From the NCBI GenBank assembly GCA_023150835.1, contig JAKLKB010000134.1:1-43068 (forward strand): a stretch of 43,068 nucleotides of DNA, read 5' to 3'. This DNA comes from Myxococcota bacterium. Lineage in GTDB: Bacteria > Myxococcota_C > UBA6777. A model generated the notes under the pieces. The model was not told where the DNA came from. It did no database searches and was given only the letters and a program-made list of their open reading frames with translations. The translations under genes and the position numbers were made by a program. How positions within the stretch are numbered: position 1 is the first letter of the stretch; every line of letters begins with the position of its first letter. This document shows, piece after piece, positions 12,335-22,322 of this stretch.

Positions 12335-12465
12335 GCAGTTGCCAAAAAAATCCCGTGTTCGCGCCGTGTCAAGCGAGAGCGTCGTCTGTGTGAAAAACAG
12401 TGATCTTTTCGCCAATACGGGGTCAAGGGGCGACAGTCCCTTGCGGGGCATGGGGCAGCGCCCCA
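12335..12465 (+). repeat. Dispersed repeat R1, copy A
   Basis: Begins GCAGTTGCCAAAAA, continues CGTGTTCGCGC and AAGCGAGAGCGTCG, then TTCGCCAATACGGGGTCAAG, and closes with the palindrome GGGGCAGCGCCCC. Matching copies lie at 22403, 24131, 32734 and, inverted, 39731. No long coding frame is shared among the copies. With the R3 hairpin it fills the 316-base gap between the repeat protein and the convergent LRR-PP2C gene. Confidence 0.88.
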
Positions 12466-12522: not shown

Positions 12523-14616
12523 TTAAAGGGGAGCGTTGTGTACGCGCACGCATTGAAACGCAAAGTTGTCTCGACAAGGTTCTTGGAGGATGCGTGCGAG
12601 GAAAGCGGGTGTGATCTGTTGTGGGCTTCCTTGGTGTGCGTTGAAGAAGTCCGATAGTGCTTGAGAAGAGAGTTCGCTGTGGACGCCATCAGAGCATAAG
12701 AAAAACAGGTCGTTGGGTTGGATGGGGAAACAAGCCAGTTGGATATCCAAGGATTCGGTGCATCCGATGGCGCGTAGAACAACGTTTTTGTGTGGAAATT
12801 CTTCGGTCTCTTGGGGTGAGCGCAAGAGTCCCATGCGGATACATTCGCGCAAAAGCGTGTGATCTTCGGTCAGTTGGAAGAGTTGGCCATCGCGGAACAG
12901 GTAAGCTCGGCAATCGCCTGCGTGGGCGACCCATGCTTGCTCGTCTTCGATGGCGAGAGCGGCAAAGGTCGCTGCACCGCCGCGAAGGTAAGGGATGCCT
13001 TCTGCGCCCGAAGAGAACCGATACAAGGCCAAGTTGGCTTCATGAAGCAACAACAACAGGGAGGCGGCTTTGGGGGTGGGGAGGTGAAAAGAGCGCTTGG
13101 TTTCAGCCGAGGGCAAGGCCCGTTCGAGTTCTCTCCAAGGCAAGGGGATATCTGCTTCTCCGAGTCCTCGCGCTAGAAAGCTCATCAGAAAACCAGAAGG
13201 GATGTAGCCCGACGATCCGCCGCCCATACCATCCGCTACGATGAAGACTTGCGCGTTGGGGAACGTTGCGACCGCGTCTTCGTTATGTTGTCGAAGATGC
13301 CCTACGTGTGTGCTGGAAGCGGACTCGATCACCCAAGGATTCCGATGTTCCGAACGAACTCCCAACAACATAGGGCGAAGGTACGGTAGTTCCGAAAGAT
13401 CCGGCGTTAGAGAAGAGGGTAGATCGTAGGTTGGTTCTTGATGCGTAAAGAAAGCGTCGGCTGGTTCTTGGTGCGTAAAGAAAGGCTCGGAGCGAAGGGC
13501 ATCTTGGTAGAATGTGAAACTGGCGGTGGTTGTAGGATAAGCGAGATCGAGATCGCGTTGGAGTTGTTGTGCAGTATCTTGCAAAGCCCGAAGGGCCGAA
13601 GCGCGGATGGGATTGAAGTGGAGTTGGAGCTGCTCCCATCGTGCTTTGGGCAGATGTTCTGCGATCCGTTGAATCGAGTCATCCGAAAGATCATTGAAGC
13701 GCAGATCGAGATCGCGAACGGAGGAGAGCAACGCCGAAGACAGCGCCTTTGTGAGACCACGATCGGTCAAGCCGTTGGTCGCAAGAGAAAGTCGCATAAG
13801 CTTGGAGGCCGATGCTTGGGCCAGTTGCAACAGTCCATCGTCAGCAAGGCGGTTGTATGAAAGATCGATAGAGCGAAGCGATCCCAATACAGGCGAGCGG
13901 GCGAGCGTCTTGGCTTCTTGGTTTGCGAGGCCAGCGTGGCGGATCTGGATCTCTTCTAACGAAGGCCAGTTTACACTCGACAGCCACACATGAAGCGTTT
14001 CGTCGGTGATGGGATAACCTGCCATCCGAAAGCTCCGTAGCTTCGGCATCTGCACCAAGCAGAGCTTTTGCAACAACTGCCCCACCGCGCTAGGGTCAAA
14101 GGTTCGCATCGGATAGGCCATCTCCAAACCGACCCATCCACCGAGATCACAGGCGTCAAAAAGTCGCAAATGTTCTTGGAGCGAGAAGGTCGAATAGCGG
14201 ATCTGGATATGTTGTACACGGTTGAGTACGCGCACAAAAGAAGGCGCATAGGTGATGGGTTCGTCTTCCTTCAGTTCGACGCGCACGCTTCGTACAGCGG
14301 GCAATTGGAGCAGGGTTTGTAAGGAGGCTTCTTGGAGGTGTTTGGGGGAAAGCAGATGTGCAAAGACAAAGATGCGAAACAACGGATGATCGGGCATCTT
14401 CTGTAGGTTGGACGACCAAAACTCCGAATACAGGGGGAAAGCCCGTAGTTCATCAGGCCAGCGCTCAAGGTGTTGGCACAGGTACTGCGAGACCAACGAC
14501 CAATCGCCTTCCCAAGACCACTCTTCGAGTCGTTTGAGCAACGCCGACCACGATCCTCGATCCACAGATTTGCTCAAAAAGGCCCGTATATCGGCCAAAT
14601 GGTGTTCTGGGTTCAT
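12523..14616 (-). CDS. Leucine-rich-repeat/PP2C serine-threonine phosphatase fusion
   Basis: The 697-residue cytoplasmic protein joins three parts: a helical N-terminus (1-105), leucine-rich repeats (about 130-345; for example LRSIDLSYNRLADDGLLQLA and VRDLDLRFNDLSDDSIQRIA), and a PP2C phosphatase (about 430-697). PP2C metal ligands are present: NED (445-447), VADGMGG (460-466), AGDCRAY, CSDGV (641-645) and RDN (682-684). FFTHQEP is tandemly duplicated in the linker. LRR plus PP2C recalls eukaryotic PHLPP phosphatases. GGGGAG lies 4 bases before the ATG. It follows the CHAT-protease gene by 19 bases and is third in that operon, suggesting it controls the system or its output by dephosphorylation (inference). 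Confidence 0.9.
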   Translation of the reverse strand: MNPEHHLADIRAFLSKSVDRGSWSALLKRLEEWSWEGDWSLVSQYLCQHLERWPDELRAFPLYSEFWSSNLQKMPDHPLFRIFVFAHLLSPKHLQEASLQTLLQLPAVRSVRVELKEDEPITYAPSFVRVLNRVQHIQIRYSTFSLQEHLRLFDACDLGGWVGLEMAYPMRTFDPSAVGQLLQKLCLVQMPKLRSFRMAGYPITDETLHVWLSSVNWPSLEEIQIRHAGLANQEAKTLARSPVLGSLRSIDLSYNRLADDGLLQLAQASASKLMRLSLATNGLTDRGLTKALSSALLSSVRDLDLRFNDLSDDSIQRIAEHLPKARWEQLQLHFNPIRASALRALQDTAQQLQRDLDLAYPTTTASFTFYQDALRSEPFFTHQEPADAFFTHQEPTYDLPSSLTPDLSELPYLRPMLLGVRSEHRNPWVIESASSTHVGHLRQHNEDAVATFPNAQVFIVADGMGGGSSGYIPSGFLMSFLARGLGEADIPLPWRELERALPSAETKRSFHLPTPKAASLLLLLHEANLALYRFSSGAEGIPYLRGGAATFAALAIEDEQAWVAHAGDCRAYLFRDGQLFQLTEDHTLLRECIRMGLLRSPQETEEFPHKNVVLRAIGCTESLDIQLACFPIQPNDLFFLCSDGVHSELSSQALSDFFNAHQGSPQQITPAFLARILQEPCRDNFAFQCVRVHNAPL

Positions 14617-14635
14617 GCGCTCCCCTGCTTGGACT

Positions 14636-15328
14636 TTAAATGCCTGACGTTTTCACAAACAGGCTTTTCCGTAGCTGTTGCAACAATACGGCAGCCCCCC
14701 AACCTTTTGCTTCGTGTTCTTCGCCATCGGGTGGGCATCGATCTGATGCGATGAACTCGTCCAAGGTTTCGAGCGCATCAAAGATCGCCAATCTTAGTTT
14801 TTTTTCGTCTTCCTCCCCATCCAAAAAGGCCAACATTGCGGCTTCTGTGCAATCTCGCAGCATGGCCACTTGCTCCTCGTTCCAGTTCGGGGGGATTCTC
14901 GGGACGCCGACTTCAACGGAGTGCCCTACAAAACACCTCACACCGTGCTGGACGGCGATAGCCCCAAACGATCGTATGCCCAGCCAGTCTGATCGGGCTG
15001 CGGGATCTTCTATCGTTTCGCAAGCAAAGACGTACACTGCTGCGTTTGAGAAGAGTTCTCCAAACATCGGAGCATCGCTCCAGATCGGTTCATCTTTGAT
15101 TTGTGCTCGCAGCGAGCAAGAGTTCTTTCCACAATGCCCAAAGACCAAGCCGCGTCGTTCTTGGTGTGGCAGCGCGTGGAGAGCGGCCTCTATCTCGTCA
15201 AAAGAGGGAGATGCTCCGAAAAATGTCTTTGCTGTGTTGCGTTTAATTGCGATGTCATGGGCGGTATCGAGCGTAAGTTTTGTTGCGTCGTCGCCTTCTC
15301 GGTGCAGGGCAACCAACACGTACGACAT
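14636..15328 (-). CDS. CHAT-like (caspase-related) cysteine protease
   Basis: The 230-residue protein shows a His-Cys dyad in CHAT-type settings: His65 in GLVFGHCG and Cys103 in AAVYVFACET, the latter matching the LSACET hallmark. RCFVGHSVEV further on matches the post-Cys strand usually ending in slWpv. It lacks a signal peptide, so it is cytoplasmic. Such proteases serve as effectors or processors in several bacterial immune systems, for example with CRISPR type III-E or bacterial gasdermins; no gasdermin is present here. Its ATG overlaps the TAA of the upstream ATPase gene by one base, so the two are translated together. Family assignment is by motif and should be tested structurally. Confidence 0.75.
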   Translation of the reverse strand: MSYVLVALHREGDDATKLTLDTAHDIAIKRNTAKTFFGASPSFDEIEAALHALPHQERRGLVFGHCGKNSCSLRAQIKDEPIWSDAPMFGELFSNAAVYVFACETIEDPAARSDWLGIRSFGAIAVQHGVRCFVGHSVEVGVPRIPPNWNEEQVAMLRDCTEAAMLAFLDGEEDEKKLRLAIFDALETLDEFIASDRCPPDGEEHEAKGWGAAVLLQQLRKSLFVKTSGI

Positions 15329-16842
15329 TACCTCGTCCCTTTCTTTGCGCCACGACGCATCGCCATGATCGCCATCTCAGTCATCGCGGAGGCATACTCG
15401 TTGGCCAAGGCTCGGTCGCCATCAATGGATTCTTTGAGCATCTTTGCGGTGACAGGGAGGCCTTTTGCGTCTTGGAACACGACATCCTCTTCGTCGATGG
15501 CTTCTGCTACAAGCTGACGCAGCGCGTCCCAAAAGGGACTCGGCTCGTAAAAATGCTCGATAGCGCGGGAACGTCGTTCGATTCGTACTTCGGTCCAACC
15601 CTCTTCGTTCATCGAGACATCAAGATAAAAAGCAGCCAAAGCGAAGGCGTGATGGTGCGTTTCGATCCAGAGTTGGTTGATCACGAACGTGTCGTTGGCA
15701 CCTTCTGGATTCATCTCTCGTTTGAAGAATTCAGCCAGATCGAGCACCATGTTGCGGTGAAGGTGTGCTTCGGGTTCTTCGATCATTACGATGGCAGCGC
15801 GGTTGATGTAAAGGTTGGTGAACATCCACACAAGCTGTTGTTTGCCTGTTCCGGACATACTCACGGCATGTTCTTGGCCGTTGGGCATCGTGGCGAGCAG
15901 CTCAAATCGCCCGACGGTGCTGTCCCAGATCGGAGCGAGCGCGCTTTGCTTGAATCCTGCTTGGTTAAGGACTTGTGACAAGCTGTTTGTGAGTTCTCGC
16001 CTCCACTTGGCTTTGGCAAGTTGCGAAGAAGCAAGGTAGGCGATCAGGTCTTTTTCTTGAACCAATCTGCCTTGTTGCATAGAGTTGGGATCATCGTTCG
16101 TGCTTTTTCCTGTTCGGTAAGCTCCGATATGCAAGAACAGATGGGGTATCAGGATGGTTTTGGCGCGTACTTTGAGCAGCGTTTCTTTTTGCGCGGATTG
16201 CTCGATTTTGTCTCTGGCTTTTTGAGCATCGTGTAGCTGTTTAGAATAGTTGTTGTGTATGTTTCTGACATCTTCGTTTTTTCCGATGTATTGGGCTGCA
16301 TCGATCTCGTACTTACGGATCTGGCTTTCGTAATGGGCGATTTGTTGGTAGATGCGTGTCAATTCGGGTGCTTCGTTGCCTTTGCTTGCGAGGCTTAATA
16401 AGTCTGACCCGTCCAGTCGGAACACTTCAAACCAGATGTGCAATTCTTGCCCGCGATCTTGCGCTACGACTTGAAGGTGAAGTGTCGAAAAGGTTGTCTC
16501 TCCTTCCATGAGATCTTTTTGGAAGTCACCGAGTTGTATTTCCGTTCGGATGTCGATTTGTTTTGAGCCAAAAGCGAAGTCTTCAGGGCGGAGTTTGATT
16601 TGTTGGTGGTAGTTTGGGTCGACCAAATTGGCGACGAGTGGTTGGGCTTGTGTTGGTAAGAACTGAAGCGTTGCCCAATGCATGATGCAGTCGATGGCGC
16701 GGAGGATATTGGATTTCCCGCAGCCGTTGGGGCCGTGTAGCACCACGATATCTCCCAAGTCATCAAGTTTTATATGTTTGAGGCTGCGATAGCCGCTTAC
16801 CTCAAGCGAACGGATCTTGGTGCGGCGGAAGGCTTGGGGCAT
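15328..16842 (-). CDS. OLD/AAA15-type ABC-fold ATPase
   Basis: The 504-residue ATPase starts with a RecF/SMC-like segment (IRSLEVSGYRSLKHIKL) and Walker A GPNGCGKS (37-44). A coiled coil follows at about 163-225, then a signature-like SMSGTGKQQL (328-337), Walker B VMIEEPEAHLH (352-362) and a switch segment WIETHHH (392-398). There is no TOPRIM domain after the ATPase, unlike true OLD nucleases. GAGGAG lies 6 bases before ATG 16842. It is the first gene of a unit with the CHAT-like protease and the LRR-PP2C protein. Related ATPases act as sensors or regulators in defence systems such as Septu, PARIS and Gabija, each with a different effector; a similar job is inferred here. Confidence 0.88.
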   Translation of the reverse strand: MPQAFRRTKIRSLEVSGYRSLKHIKLDDLGDIVVLHGPNGCGKSNILRAIDCIMHWATLQFLPTQAQPLVANLVDPNYHQQIKLRPEDFAFGSKQIDIRTEIQLGDFQKDLMEGETTFSTLHLQVVAQDRGQELHIWFEVFRLDGSDLLSLASKGNEAPELTRIYQQIAHYESQIRKYEIDAAQYIGKNEDVRNIHNNYSKQLHDAQKARDKIEQSAQKETLLKVRAKTILIPHLFLHIGAYRTGKSTNDDPNSMQQGRLVQEKDLIAYLASSQLAKAKWRRELTNSLSQVLNQAGFKQSALAPIWDSTVGRFELLATMPNGQEHAVSMSGTGKQQLVWMFTNLYINRAAIVMIEEPEAHLHRNMVLDLAEFFKREMNPEGANDTFVINQLWIETHHHAFALAAFYLDVSMNEEGWTEVRIERRSRAIEHFYEPSPFWDALRQLVAEAIDEEDVVFQDAKGLPVTAKMLKESIDGDRALANEYASAMTEMAIMAMRRGAKKGTR

Positions 16843-17134
16843 GGAAACTCCTCATGTTGTACCCCTGTAAGCATGGGTCGAATGAACAGGGGGAGCAAAC
16901 AAACGACTGTACCGCTCGAACGTCCGCGAATACAGCTTTTTTGTCAACGGCGTGTTGCGAGATCCCCAAGGTGGCTATGTTCTTGGGCGCGTTGGTGGCC
17001 GAACACGGGAGGTTTTGTCAACTGCGTGGGGTGAGGGCTTTTGGGTGGAAGGCTTTTGGTGTGGTGATGGTCAGAGTAGGTGTTGTTTAGAAAGGCTTTT
17101 GCGCGGTGGGGGCGTCAGAGCAAGGCGGGTTCGT

Positions 17135-18664
17135 TCACTCGCATCGTGCGGTACCGGGGTTGTACTTTGTGCTGGGTGGACAGACACAGGCGTTGATTTC
17201 GGCCTTGGTGAACCACTGATAGCGGAAGTATTGGAGTGAACCGTCGGTGAATCGGACAAAACCAACGAACTCGAACTGGTCGGAACCTTGGGTGTGTTGA
17301 TAGAACCCTTGTTCCCAGAAAAGCCGCGCAAGTAGGGGATTGGAGGCATACTGGTTGCTGCGGAGAAACTTGGAGAAGTTGCAGGTTCCACCGAGCGGGA
17401 AGGTGCGAGTCAGTCTGTGCGGATCGAAGACGGTGTCATGGCAGATCCCGCCGTCGCAGAGGGTTCCTTTGTTTTGCGTGGTGCAATCGGTGTTGGCGGT
17501 GCAAGTCGAACCTGTCACAGGCTTATAGCAAGATCCGCTTTTGCAAACCGCCGTCGTTCCGCCCACATCAGCGCAATCTTTGTCTGCTGTACAAGGGAGC
17601 AACGCAGGTTTGAAGTTTCCACCAAGACCCATCATCGTACAACGCGAAGGTTTGAGCGGAGTGTTGTTGTGCCAAGGGTAGTTGACGCACTCGCCGCCCG
17701 GCCCAAGGTAATCTCGAAGCTCTTTGCACTCGGCATATCGGGTTTCATCCGCAACCCATGTGTAGCACTTGCTGGCTTGGCAAAAGGCTTCGCCTTTGGC
17801 GGTGCAATCGTCGTCTTGGGTGCATGTGAGGGTGGCGTGGGGTTTGTAGCAACGCTTGTCCTTGCAGATCGCGGTGCTTCCGCCTTGAGCGGTGCAGTCC
17901 GCGTCGCTTGCGCAGGGGCTTGTCACTAGATCGAATGCTCCGTCTTTTCGCATCGTCGCGCAGTGCTCTCCAAAACACTCACCTACGCCGTTGCATCCGA
18001 CGTTGGAGAGTGCCGCAACCTCGATCTTGGAAGTTGCAGCACCAGCGTATTTGTGGAAGATCGTCATCCGATAGTTTTTGTTTACGTCGAGCTTGTCCCC
18101 CGGCACTTTGGCGTCGCCATTCTTGAGCGTCTTGACGATCTTTCCGCTGCTATCGAGTTCTTCAACGAGAAACTGAATGCACGTGTTGTTGCCGACCGTA
18201 TAGGTGTCTGTGCCGCAGGTGACCTTGACGAGGCCGCACTCAAAGGGGGCTGTTGTGCAGAGCTTGCCGTCCTCGAAGTTTTCGCCTTTTAACACCACCC
18301 AGCTCAGATCGCCGCATGTGATCTTGGCGGTGCTGCCGATCTTTCCTGCTTCGATGGTACACTTGACGGGATCTCCTTTGGGGCCGGGATCGCCTTTTTC
18401 GCCTTTCTCACCCGTCGCACCCGTCGCGCCAGCCGTACCAGCCGCACCGGTCGCACCGGTCGCACCAGCCGTCCCTTGCTCGCCTTTGGCCCCATCTTTC
18501 CCGTCTTTTCCATTTTTGACCGTGTAGGTTTTTCCGCCACACGTGAGGGTTGCGGTGCCGTCGGCATTCTCTTGGAGGGTGCAGGGCGCACCACAGCCGG
18601 GATTGAAGATCAAAAGCAAACACCCTGATAGTCCCAAAACGCATCGGAAAAGCAGATTTCTCAC
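17135..18664 (-). CDS. Collagen-like cysteine-rich lipoprotein or secreted protein
   Basis: The 509-residue protein begins at GTG 18664, five bases after AAGGAGG; the frame stays open upstream but without coding character. The N-terminus is a signal peptide with two possible lipobox Cys residues (LSGC at 15, or NPGC at 24). Residues 52-99 are 16 perfect collagen-type G-X-Y triplets (GKD, GEQ, GAT, GEK, GDP). The rest holds Cys-rich modules of the pattern C-x(3-4)-D-C (for example CASDADC, CTQDDDC, CTADKDC, CTANTDC), common in myxobacterial surface proteins, and a C-terminal domain ending CVCPPSTKY. It is probably a cell-surface protein. The 292 bases between it and the ATPase gene show no feature beyond an isolated TTGACA on the minus strand (16942-16947). 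Confidence 0.85.
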   Translation of the reverse strand: MRNLLFRCVLGLSGCLLLIFNPGCGAPCTLQENADGTATLTCGGKTYTVKNGKDGKDGAKGEQGTAGATGATGAAGTAGATGATGEKGEKGDPGPKGDPVKCTIEAGKIGSTAKITCGDLSWVVLKGENFEDGKLCTTAPFECGLVKVTCGTDTYTVGNNTCIQFLVEELDSSGKIVKTLKNGDAKVPGDKLDVNKNYRMTIFHKYAGAATSKIEVAALSNVGCNGVGECFGEHCATMRKDGAFDLVTSPCASDADCTAQGGSTAICKDKRCYKPHATLTCTQDDDCTAKGEAFCQASKCYTWVADETRYAECKELRDYLGPGGECVNYPWHNNTPLKPSRCTMMGLGGNFKPALLPCTADKDCADVGGTTAVCKSGSCYKPVTGSTCTANTDCTTQNKGTLCDGGICHDTVFDPHRLTRTFPLGGTCNFSKFLRSNQYASNPLLARLFWEQGFYQHTQGSDQFEFVGFVRFTDGSLQYFRYQWFTKAEINACVCPPSTKYNPGTARCE

Positions 18665-19100
18665 AGGATCCTCCTTGTGCGATCGTTGTTCAGAGGTGCA
18701 TGACAACCACGCCAATGACACTTCCGAAAGAGTCAGAGATCGAAGCGACAGCGACACAGCAAGTTCCCGATGGCGTGATATCCTGAGGTTGCGCGAGCAA
18801 AAAAGGGTGAAATGTTGGTCTGTAGAGGCCCTTGATTCGGGCGAGGACATCCACTCGCTGCTGCGTTTTCGTCACACATTCGTCGGATTTCGTGATCTTG
18901 TTTGGATCGATTCTGATCGACAAAGATCGCAATCGACTGCTTGTTCTGGCTTCTCTCTTAGAGAGAGTGTCAAAAAATCAAGAAAGGGGGCTTTTTCTTT
19001 TTGATGAAATAGCGAGGCAGATCCTCTGAACGGGAGGCTTGTGATGCAACCAGCGATGCGAGCGACTATCTCATCGCAATGATCGCGTTTTCTCTCCCGC
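18665..19100. other. Intergenic region between the collagen-like gene and the caspase gene
   Basis: About 436 bases. It holds the AAGGAGG of the collagen-like gene (18670-18676), a terminator-like hairpin near 18972-19005, and otherwise no ORF with coding character or RNA gene. The upstream extension of the collagen-like frame crosses part of it but is not believed to be translated. Confidence 0.5.
18972..19005 (-). terminator. Rho-independent-type terminator after the caspase gene
   Basis: On the minus strand an A-rich arm (ATCAAAAAGAAAAAG), a C-rich loop and CTTTCTTGAT form an imperfect stem followed by six Ts. It lies about 95 bases after the caspase stop. AGAGTGTCAAAAAATCAA at its + strand left side recurs at 22553-22570. 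Confidence 0.6.
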
Positions 19101-20756
19101 TCAAAAGCGGTGGCGTAAAGCGAACAGTGCGCTCCAACGGAGAGAGGCACGCCATTCTTCGCCCAAATAGCCGAAATCAACGCCCAGATCGCCTTGTAGC
19201 GCCATGCCCCAACGCGGATCCAGCCAAAGTCCCAACGAGGCCGTTGCCCCTGTTTGAAAAGCCGCGCTCGCCGCGAGTTCTCGATGGGTATCTTGCAGCA
19301 AAAGGCCCCCGCCCAGATAACCGCCCACGAAGAACGTCCACCGTTCCCAATGCCCGCTGTATCCGCCTTCTACACGCAGATCGAGATATATCTGTGGGGT
19401 CGGCAGTTTTTGAACATCGACCGATGTGGTCCACGCCCCCAAACGAAGGGCAAAGAAGGGGTATCTCAACCCGATCGCGCCACCCAAAAAAGCGCTCCCA
19501 CCTACAAAAGCAGCGCTATTCGCGCCAAGCAAGAGTTCGAGAGAACGCTCCGCGAGGGGAACTTCTTCCTTGAGGTGCTTCCAGTCCAAAGGCATCTCTT
19601 GGGAAGGCGTCTGTTGCCTAGAAGCCGTCGCCTTGCTGGGGTCTGTGTGTTCGGTCTTTGCACCCCGCCTCAAGTACTGGTTGGCATACGCAAGGTTTTT
19701 GTGTTGGAGGCCGAGGTGAAAGATCTGTTCGGGCTGTAATTGAAGTTGTACAAGAAAAGCGTTTTTTTTGTGCCGCCATTGGAGTTTGTACAATCCCGAT
19801 GTCATCGCAAGGCGCAAAGGCTCACCGTTTTGTTTATAAAAATCTGCGTAGAGGTTGCCTTTTGCGTCCCAAAGAAAGAAATGCCCAGCCAGCGAAGGGT
19901 GGAAATGCAGTTGGGTGTTGGTTTGTTTGGAGTGGCTCAGGATGATCTGGCCTGTGCCGCTGAGATTGGTGTGAAAGTGTGGGCTTTGTAGGCCAGCTTG
20001 TGCGAAGATCGTTCGGTTAATTGTTCGATGATAAGCATAAGAATAAAGTTCGTGTAAAGTGATCCGCTCGTCGTGATCGAGGTCGGCTGCGCCTCGCAGC
20101 CCTGTGGCGAGGTAGTGGGTGAAAATACCGCCGCGCAGCTTGAGATCTTCGTAGGCATTCTCTCGGCTTCCCGTAGATGTAAGAATTGCTTCCCCTTTGG
20201 TTGCATAGGTATTCAAGTGTGGGATACGGATTCCTTCTTTGCGGTGTGCAAGACCTTTTGTATGAAGAAATCGTCCTGCATCGCAAGTATCAAGAAACGC
20301 AAGGCGTAAGGTCGCGCCCGAAGAACGCAAAAAAGATCGCAGTGCTTCAAAAGACAGAGATGTTTCACCGAGATAGAACTCTCCATTGCGTGCGTGTCCA
20401 GAGTAGTAAACCCACAGCGTGATCGATGCCTTGGGTTGGTTGCGCTTGAGGGCGTGGATTCGGTGCTTGATTTGATCGAACACTTTCTGGACGTAGTCGG
20501 CTTCGCGCTCCAAAACAAGAAAGATATCACGGTCGCGATAGCCTGCGACTTGTATCAACACATCGCGCATCTTTCTCGCATCGGAAACTGCGTAGTACAG
20601 GCGTTTTGCGCGGCCTCCAGCGTCGTTATGCGCAAACAGGAACGCGATCCGATGCTCTTGCGGTGCCTTTTTTGGTGTTTGTGCGTGTGTGCTCGGCAGG
20701 TGACAGAAGATCAGGCCAAACATCCAAAGAAAAAGGCGCACGCGATAGCAGATCAT
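19101..20756 (-). CDS. Exported caspase-like protease with EF-hand loop and predicted outer-membrane barrel
   Basis: The 551-residue protein has a signal peptide (first 26 residues, ending THAQ) and a peptidase C14 domain. The catalytic His is in LWVYYSGHA (His121) and the Cys in LAFLDTCDAGR (Cys158). DLDHDERITLHE (227-238) fits a 12-residue EF-hand loop, suggesting calcium binding. After a linker with little order (about 370-410), alternating strands rich in G and aromatics to the C-terminal HRF look like an outer-membrane beta-barrel. The protease is therefore probably outside the cytoplasm. Its ATG overlaps the TGA of the DUF4384-like gene by 4 bases: third gene of the sigma/DUF4384/caspase operon. 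Confidence 0.9.
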   Translation of the reverse strand: MICYRVRLFLWMFGLIFCHLPSTHAQTPKKAPQEHRIAFLFAHNDAGGRAKRLYYAVSDARKMRDVLIQVAGYRDRDIFLVLEREADYVQKVFDQIKHRIHALKRNQPKASITLWVYYSGHARNGEFYLGETSLSFEALRSFLRSSGATLRLAFLDTCDAGRFLHTKGLAHRKEGIRIPHLNTYATKGEAILTSTGSRENAYEDLKLRGGIFTHYLATGLRGAADLDHDERITLHELYSYAYHRTINRTIFAQAGLQSPHFHTNLSGTGQIILSHSKQTNTQLHFHPSLAGHFFLWDAKGNLYADFYKQNGEPLRLAMTSGLYKLQWRHKKNAFLVQLQLQPEQIFHLGLQHKNLAYANQYLRRGAKTEHTDPSKATASRQQTPSQEMPLDWKHLKEEVPLAERSLELLLGANSAAFVGGSAFLGGAIGLRYPFFALRLGAWTTSVDVQKLPTPQIYLDLRVEGGYSGHWERWTFFVGGYLGGGLLLQDTHRELAASAAFQTGATASLGLWLDPRWGMALQGDLGVDFGYLGEEWRASLRWSALFALRHRF

Positions 20757-21664
20757 CTTTGCTCCTTAGGTCGGTGCAAGCGGAAGGCTTGCACCGTGTA
20801 GCAATGCTGCGGAGGCGTCTTGGATGTGTGGCTTGCCAGAGGTCTCGCAAGTGTGGCAAGCAACGTCTCTTTTGCTTGTGAAAAAGACAGTGCGTGCTTG
20901 GAAAAGCAAGCCCAGATCTCTTCGTCTCCGTCGGCTGAATCGATCACTTCCAAACTGCCTGAAAGCGGGAATTGTTTGCTTGCCTTGAGAGGGAAGCTTG
21001 GCTTTGTTTGCGCGTTCGGGTACAGCGGCGTGATCTGGCCTTTGGCGTCGCGGTGGACGATGTACCCAAAGCTATCGACTGGCGAATTCAGGACGAGTTG
21101 CAATCGATCACCTTGCACGAAGAGTTCTCCTGAACGAGCCAGTCGAGTCTTTCGGGCGCGTTGAACAAAGATCAGAAGATGGGGGCGATGGCTTCCTCGG
21201 CTTAATAGTTCCGTTTCATGAGGCAGTGATGTAGGTATATCACCGAGGGGCTTCTCTTGTAAATGAATTTTTTGGGGGCGAAAAAGAAAGACGAAACACA
21301 ACGAAACCATCGCGAAAGAGAGTCCTCCCCATCGGAGCCAACGACGCAACGAACCGATGGAACGGCCTACTGGAGCATCGCCTGTGCGCGTGGGTGTAGA
21401 AAGGGGGGGGGCGCTTGTGCGCGTGGTGGTAGAAAGGGGGGGGGCGCTTTGTGTGGGTGTAGAAAGGCGGCGGTCGCTTGTGTCGGGTGGCGTTTCAAAG
21501 CCATCAAGCGGGTATTGTGTGTGGGCTGTAAAAGAATCACGCGACTGGATGCGTGCGAGCAGATCAAGAGATGGAGGATCGGCGTCTTTTTTCTCTTCTT
21601 CAAAAAAAGCTTGTAAGAGTTGTTCAAAGGCTTCTTCTTGTGGGCCTGTGGGATATCGATTCAC
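20753..21664 (-). CDS. Single-pass membrane protein with DUF4384-like domain, possible anti-sigma factor
   Basis: The 303-residue protein starts at GTG 21664, 7 bases after GGGAGG. It has a cytoplasmic N-terminus, a linker with tandem copies of SAPPLSTPTRT, a membrane helix at about 112-130, and an extracytoplasmic domain with FGYIVHRDAKGQITPLYPN and QFPLSGSLEVI, matching the DUF4384 pattern found beside bacterial caspases. Its place between an ECF sigma gene and its target-like caspase suggests it may hold the sigma factor at the membrane; I see no standard anti-sigma zinc motif, so this is inference. The linker is encoded over two G9 tracts (+ strand) that could slip and switch the gene off. 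Confidence 0.8.
   Translation of the reverse strand: MNRYPTGPQEEAFEQLLQAFFEEEKKDADPPSLDLLARIQSRDSFTAHTQYPLDGFETPPDTSDRRLSTPTQSAPPLSTTTRTSAPPLSTPTRTGDAPVGRSIGSLRRWLRWGGLSFAMVSLCFVFLFRPQKIHLQEKPLGDIPTSLPHETELLSRGSHRPHLLIFVQRARKTRLARSGELFVQGDRLQLVLNSPVDSFGYIVHRDAKGQITPLYPNAQTKPSFPLKASKQFPLSGSLEVIDSADGDEEIWACFSKHALSFSQAKETLLATLARPLASHTSKTPPQHCYTVQAFRLHRPKEQR
21403..21444 (+). repeat. Two G9 tracts, 33 bp apart, inside a coding repeat
   Basis: Runs of nine G lie at 21403-21411 and 21436-21444 on the + strand (C9 in the coding strand) within a 33-bp repeat encoding SAPPLSTPTRT-like units. Such tracts are typical sites of slipped-strand mispairing. Confidence 0.9.
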
Positions 21665-21761
21665 TTTTCATCCTCCCAACCAAACGGCGAACAAAGCGCG
21701 ATTTGCTTGGTCATACGATCTCAGAGATTTTGTTCGCTAGTCGCTCTTGTCGGATCTCGTG

Positions 21762-22322
21762 TTATCCGCAATCCACGAAGTGACTTTGCCAAAGTTCTTT
21801 TAAGACTTTGCGAGCACGTTTCAGCCTTGATTTCGCGACTTCGTACGAAACTTCCAGCATTTGCGAGATCTCTTCGAGCGAAAGTTCTTCGAGGTAGCGT
21901 AGATAAAGGATCTCACGCGCATCAGGCTTTAATGTCTCAAACACCTGTCGCAACAAGGACACTTGCTCTTTGCTGCTCAGCAACGCTTCTGGGCTTGGGG
22001 CCTCGTCCGTCAGTTGCAGGAGGTCTTCGCTATCGTCCGTGTTCGTCGCTCGGCTCTTCGTTGGATGCGATTGATAGGACTTCCACGTGACTCGTCGGGC
22101 GATGGTCAAGATCCAAGCCTTGAAAGAGCCTCCGCGAAAACCGGAAAGAACGGGCCAAAGATCAGAAAAGATCTCTTGGGTAAGTTCTTCGGCTTCTTCG
22201 GTCGAAACGCGCCATGCCTTTCGCAAGTAACGATAAACGATCGGCAAGCAATACGCAGCCAGCGCGTCACGCGCCTCTTTTTCTCCCCCTACAGCTCGTA
22301 TGATCTGCGTTTGGATCTCCAT
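21762..22322 (-). CDS. ECF-type RNA polymerase sigma factor
   Basis: The 186-residue protein has the two sigma domains of an extracytoplasmic-function factor: region 2 with EEAEELTQEIFSDLWPVL and SFKAWILTIARRVT, and region 4 with LKPDAREILYLRYLEELSLEEISQMLEVSYEVAKSRLKRARKVL (helix-turn-helix), joined by an acidic linker. The start ATG at 22322 follows a purine-rich GAGAGAAGAGAG. It leads a unit with the DUF4384-like gene (97 bases downstream) and the caspase gene. ECF factors commonly drive their own operon; no matching promoter pair can be assigned from one copy. Confidence 0.93.
   Translation of the reverse strand: MEIQTQIIRAVGGEKEARDALAAYCLPIVYRYLRKAWRVSTEEAEELTQEIFSDLWPVLSGFRGGSFKAWILTIARRVTWKSYQSHPTKSRATNTDDSEDLLQLTDEAPSPEALLSSKEQVSLLRQVFETLKPDAREILYLRYLEELSLEEISQMLEVSYEVAKSRLKRARKVLKELWQSHFVDCG

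Follow-up and report, generated by a model that had tools for sequence, protein, structure and literature searches.

Three adjacent genes on the minus strand of the window, as we call the whole stretch of 43,068 nucleotides analysed here, raise the question of whether an ATPase, a small protein and a phosphatase form a defence system together or whether only some of them belong to a common unit. The window comes from a 7.6-Mb draft genome, whose phylum is represented by five genomes in our collection. OLD/AriA ATPases are a common sensor chassis, and their known partners are mostly nucleases. A preliminary description, made from the sequence alone, took the small protein for a CHAT-style protease and proposed a three-gene system in which the ATPase senses, the protease acts on a target and the phosphatase sets or reverses the state.

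Gene arrangement and the ATPase

The genes of the ATPase (504 aa; 15328..16842, minus strand), of the small protein (230 aa; 14636..15328, minus strand) and of the LRR-PP2C fusion (697 aa; 12523..14616, minus strand) are placed exactly as first described. The ATPase stop codon overlaps the start codon (ATG) of the small-protein gene by a single base (TAATG). The start of the PP2C gene follows after a gap of 19 bases and is preceded by a Shine-Dalgarno-like AGGGGAG; a terminator was looked for between the 230-aa gene and the PP2C gene and none was found. Another open reading frame, of 242 aa, lies opposite the 230-aa gene. That the latter is read in the right frame is confirmed by another genome, G390, in which a homologue with 31% identity occupies the same position. 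Since the reading frames of ATPase and small protein overlap, the two products are probably co-translated and function together as a complex.

The identification of the first gene product as an OLD/AAA15-type ATPase devoid of TOPRIM proved correct. Over residues 9-398 it matches Pfam AAA_15 (3.6e-19) as well as the PADLOC model of AriA (5.1e-22). The second PADLOC match is MAD3 (1e-19), and AriA is also its nearest PDB match; the supposed kinship with ATPases of defence systems, of the sensor type, is supported. Walker A (GPNGCGKS, residues 37-44, 16711..16734, minus strand) reads GPNGSGKS in the G390 homologue, where Walker B (VMIEEPEAHLH, residues 352-362, 15757..15789, minus strand) is kept. 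An ABC-signature-like SGTGKQQ is found at residue 330 and WIETHHH at 392. No TOPRIM family or model of Pfam or PADLOC matched any part of the protein, including residues 400-504, and the C-terminal part carries a family signature of its own, EHFYEPxPFWDALR. Single-sequence AlphaFold prediction reached a pLDDT of 40, too low for a fold search.

Conservation of the pair and position of the PP2C gene

A genome belonging to a different phylum provided a second locus (G390:C348, L060). In a search of the 195 genomes of that phylum, the G390 ATPase was retrieved at E 4.7e-42, all other genomes giving matches weaker than 1e-8. It is a full-length homologue (BLASTP 31% over 518 columns, E 3e-65), and its best PADLOC match is MAD3 (2.3e-22). 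The gene downstream of it, a 204-aa open reading frame (203 aa from ATG), codes for a protein homologous to the 230-aa protein over its whole length (31% over 229 columns, E 9e-22; Smith-Waterman score 198 versus a maximum of 57 in 1000 shuffles). Gene order is the same as in the window and the two genes again overlap by one base, here as TGATG, but no PP2C gene is present at this locus.

Around the G390 pair lie genes of an RND-like pump and of an outer-membrane efflux protein, on the other strand, as well as of a thrombospondin-repeat protein and a porin. The 3´ end of the outer-membrane efflux gene is present twice, once on either side of the two genes, which stand there alone; the duplicated part consists of 39 nt at 95% identity followed by 19 nt at 100% that span the stop codon. 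Because this duplication brackets exactly two genes, it points to insertion of a two-gene cassette, and the G390 pair has probably arrived in this way. A 23-nt inverted repeat (91%; L060 6934-6956 and 9270-9292) links the small-protein gene (3´ end) with the thrombospondin-repeat gene (3´ part) and perhaps belongs to the insertion event.

Since the G390 locus has both genes with their overlap and no PP2C gene, the conserved unit consists of the ATPase and the small protein. Both genomes of the window's genus carry the pair; the family's three other genomes lack it, as does the remainder of the 386-genome sample. Two independent loci are known, one in this genus and one in G390. The whole trio occurs only in this genus, as two near-identical copies (in the window genome and in G001). 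The expected conservation of adjacency therefore holds for ATPase and small protein, across two phyla, and fails for the PP2C gene, and the proposal of a three-gene system is not sustained. Plasmids and viral contigs searched with the window proteins, and phages searched with the window ATPase only, gave generic OLD matches or none; the same applies to plasmids and viral contigs searched with the G390 copies or with profiles. When 398 genomes were searched with the profile A2, the result was negative among the 3 candidates scored, of 11-70, in each genome listed, which is weak evidence of absence. Two apparent relatives were discarded: a match in G013 (E 0.01) is due to chance, the protein looking like a deoxyribose-phosphate aldolase from its sequence and neighbours, and an ATPase on a Ruegeria plasmid is a different protein, an OLD reading into a TOPRIM-like C-terminal part.

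Comparison of the window with G001 revealed that the genes of the locus differ in their degree of divergence. Between the two genomes, identity is about 99.6% in the pair of ATPase and small protein (0.36% difference), 97.6% in the PP2C gene (2.4% difference) and about 93% in the flanks (6-7% difference). Near-identity holds for the stretch of 14.6-22.1 kb, and the change in identity falls close to the boundary between the PP2C and 230-aa genes. These data fit a recent exchange of a block comprising the pair together with the genes upstream of it as far as the sigma factor. They also suggest that the history of the PP2C gene is partly separate from that of the pair, a point to be taken as supporting evidence because both genomes are draft assemblies and the trio of G001 is split by a contig end inside the PP2C gene. 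Amino-acid changes (2/230 in the small protein, 1/504 in the ATPase) are too few for a selection test. Within this region, some 5.5 kb (16601-22100), holding genes of a collagen-like lipoprotein, a caspase-domain protein, a DUF4384 protein and an ECF sigma factor, contain about one base difference, indicating either very recent exchange or cross-assembly. An intergenic repeat of about 125 nt is dispersed over the window (12344, 22398, 24124, 32734 and 39756) and occurs also in G001, its copies being about 67-84% identical. The copies at 12344 and 24124 were considered as ends of an island and rejected as such, since the 43-kb window holds five copies or more.

The PP2C gene product itself is a genuine fusion, as previously described. 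LRRs (approximately residues 187-350) are followed by a PP2C domain of the Stp1/IreP type (436-689) that matches NF033484 at 2.3e-40, below the equivalog cut-off of that model, and the metal-site motifs RQHNED, DGMGG, GDCR, CSDG and RDN are intact. Genomes of the genus contain about 15 matches to the LRR-PP2C protein each, mostly PP2C domains, which makes a chance neighbour plausible. The gene adjoining the conserved unit most likely either just happens to lie beside it or was added in this lineage, and it is probably co-transcribed with the pair in the window lineage.

The small protein

The 230-aa protein has no significant match in Pfam, NCBIfam, PADLOC, PHROGs or PDB and, together with its G390 copy, forms a new family. 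Models of AriB, AbiLii, PtuB, DUF4435 and TOPRIM match neither of the two copies. Of its eight His residues, His65 and His136 are the only ones shared with the G390 copy, and of its six Cys residues only Cys103 is. His65 (VFGH-C-G; codon 15134..15136, minus strand) and Cys103 (YVFACET; codon 15020..15022, minus strand) thus form a pair that is invariant between copies 31% identical, embedded in the motifs LVFGHxG and VYxFACxT, and both candidate catalytic residues sit at the ends of hydrophobic runs.

As far as primary structure goes, the protein appears to resemble CHAT peptidases in motif order, in the hydrophobic runs and in the distance from Cys to the next motif. True CHAT domains of another phylum read LHLATHGFF, LVVLSACxT and AGAETVVMSLW. 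In the small protein, a segment G-V-x-x-F-x-GH lies 24-26 residues past Cys, while AGA-xx-VV-x-SLW of CHAT lies at 22. The spacing between His and Cys, however, is 35-38 residues against 47-102 in the CHAT set, and H-x-G takes the place of HG. Neither copy matches PF12770 at E 1, nor any CHAT or caspase profile. When a two-copy profile of the small protein was compared by hhalign with 30 CHAT domains, a wrong, off-register segment was aligned at 3.7% probability, and a three-block CHAT score did not rise above background. Single-sequence AlphaFold gave a pLDDT of 38, again too low for a fold search. Of the CHAT-style dyad originally claimed, the His/Cys pair is indeed present and invariant; the assignment to CHAT finds no profile match. 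A caspase-style protease fold seems likely nevertheless, and we regard a clan-CD-like fold as reasonably probable.

Possible function of the pair

Overlap of the genes, lack of a TOPRIM and a partner that is small and separate fit an AriA-like plan in which a putative cysteine peptidase stands in the place of AriB. In PARIS, the effector AriB is kept sequestered by a hexamer of AriA, the nearest characterised ATPase, and is freed when a phage trigger binds (PMC12409363). By analogy, the ATPase of the window would hold the small effector inactive until a trigger, e.g. a phage protein, is sensed, and would then free or activate it; the effector would cleave a host or self target by means of His65/Cys103 and growth would stop. 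LRR-PP2C would perhaps be co-expressed and exert a modulating influence in this genus, the unit elsewhere doing without it. Complex formation, peptidase activity, the trigger and the immune role of the pair are what we infer. That the two genes form a unit in which a PARIS-like sensor ATPase restrains or activates a caspase-like effector, with a presumed role in immunity, is in our opinion an evenly balanced proposition. The fuller version, an unnamed two-gene immune system whose AriA-like ATPase controls a stand-alone caspase-like protease acting as death effector, we advance only tentatively.

No known system corresponds to the pair in all respects. PARIS (AriA-AriB) shares with it a TOPRIM-less OLD/ABC ATPase, for which AriA is the best match, and a separate gene for a small effector, but the effector of the window fits no AriB model and carries the invariant His/Cys pair, and the window ATPase possesses the C-terminal signature given above. 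MADS is linked to the pair through MAD3, the best PADLOC match of the G390 ATPase and the second of the window ATPase, yet no other MADS genes were seen near the pair. With CHAT peptidases (PF12770; TPR-CHAT of type III-E CRISPR, Borvo) the small protein appears to have in common the order His then Cys, the ACxT motif and the G-V segment; it differs in having no TPR or other fused domain and no significant profile match. Gabija and OLD class 1-3 have an OLD-type ATPase core as well, whereas the window ATPase has no C-terminal TOPRIM and its locus neither helicase nor reverse transcriptase. The pair was not found as a named system in the literature and libraries searched, and the preliminary description had no named system for the trio; an earlier description may exist in the survey literature on ABC-ATPase conflict systems.

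Three other readings have to be weighed against a two-gene unit with a caspase-like effector. The trio might be a true three-gene system after all, with LRR-PP2C as a lineage-specific regulator or sensor arm that controls how far the ATPase, the protease or the target of the protease is phosphorylated. The PP2C gene lies on the same strand at short distance, with its own ribosome-binding-like motif and no terminator found in front of it, and G001 carries the same trio; moreover, a serine/threonine phosphatase does take part in phage defence within the compact kinase-kinase-phosphatase module KKP (PMC11341870). The window locus, unlike KKP, has no kinase, and its PP2C gene is outside the conserved unit. 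This, together with the G390 locus, the abundance of PP2C matches in the genus and the larger divergence of the PP2C gene, makes the three-gene reading improbable. A different objection concerns the nature of the effector. The usual partners of this ATPase's relatives are TOPRIM-type proteins about as large as the small protein (PMC12409363, PMC12839542), so the small protein could be e.g. a very divergent TOPRIM/RloB/DUF4435-like nuclease and the pair an ordinary PARIS- or AbiL-like system. The unsupportive hhalign and three-block tests of CHAT membership agree with this. Against it, the N-terminal acidic residue expected of TOPRIM is not conserved, E11 being lost in the G390 copy. Since nuclease models of the kinds searched do not match and the invariant residues include the His/Cys pair in clan-CD-like surroundings, we think such a nuclease rather unlikely.

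The remaining reading removes the pair from immunity altogether, assigning it to housekeeping or signalling in predatory or social bacteria, with no relation to phages, e.g. to developmental proteolysis. No recognisable defence genes occur near the window locus or the G390 locus, the neighbours being efflux, lipoprotein, sigma-factor and caspase-domain genes, and enrichment in defence islands, which a defence system might have been expected to display, was not observed at either of them. Set against this are the very patchy distribution and the probable insertion in G390, as for a mobile defence-like cassette, and the fact that the ATPases closest to that of the window are defence sensors; we consider a role of this kind doubtful.

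In the pair, it is the effector family that is new, the sensor chassis being known. If the partner is a caspase-like protease, AriA-type sensors would also drive proteolytic cell death, which would link PARIS-type sensing with CHAT or caspase execution and provide a minimal two-gene system for studying how one type of ATPase controls unrelated effectors. For experiments, the reduction of the unit to two genes shows what to clone.

Caspase-related domains were encountered elsewhere as well. In the window (19101-22322), genes of the caspase-domain protein (EACC1-like, with GHARNG and LDTCDAG), the DUF4384 protein and the ECF sigma factor stand in a row and possibly represent a separate caspase signalling operon adjoining the pair. 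All five genomes of the phylum (L040-L044; G003, G001, G000, G002, G004) contain one CHAT-domain (PF12770) match, and the sole match of the window genome lies away from the 230-aa gene. In 3/3 proteins read, this CHAT domain forms a fusion with a ClpC-like AAA+ unfoldase, and in 4/4 aligned it has apparently lost the HG and ACxT motifs, so to judge from the alignment it may be a pseudo-CHAT that serves a Clp machine as substrate or as signal module.
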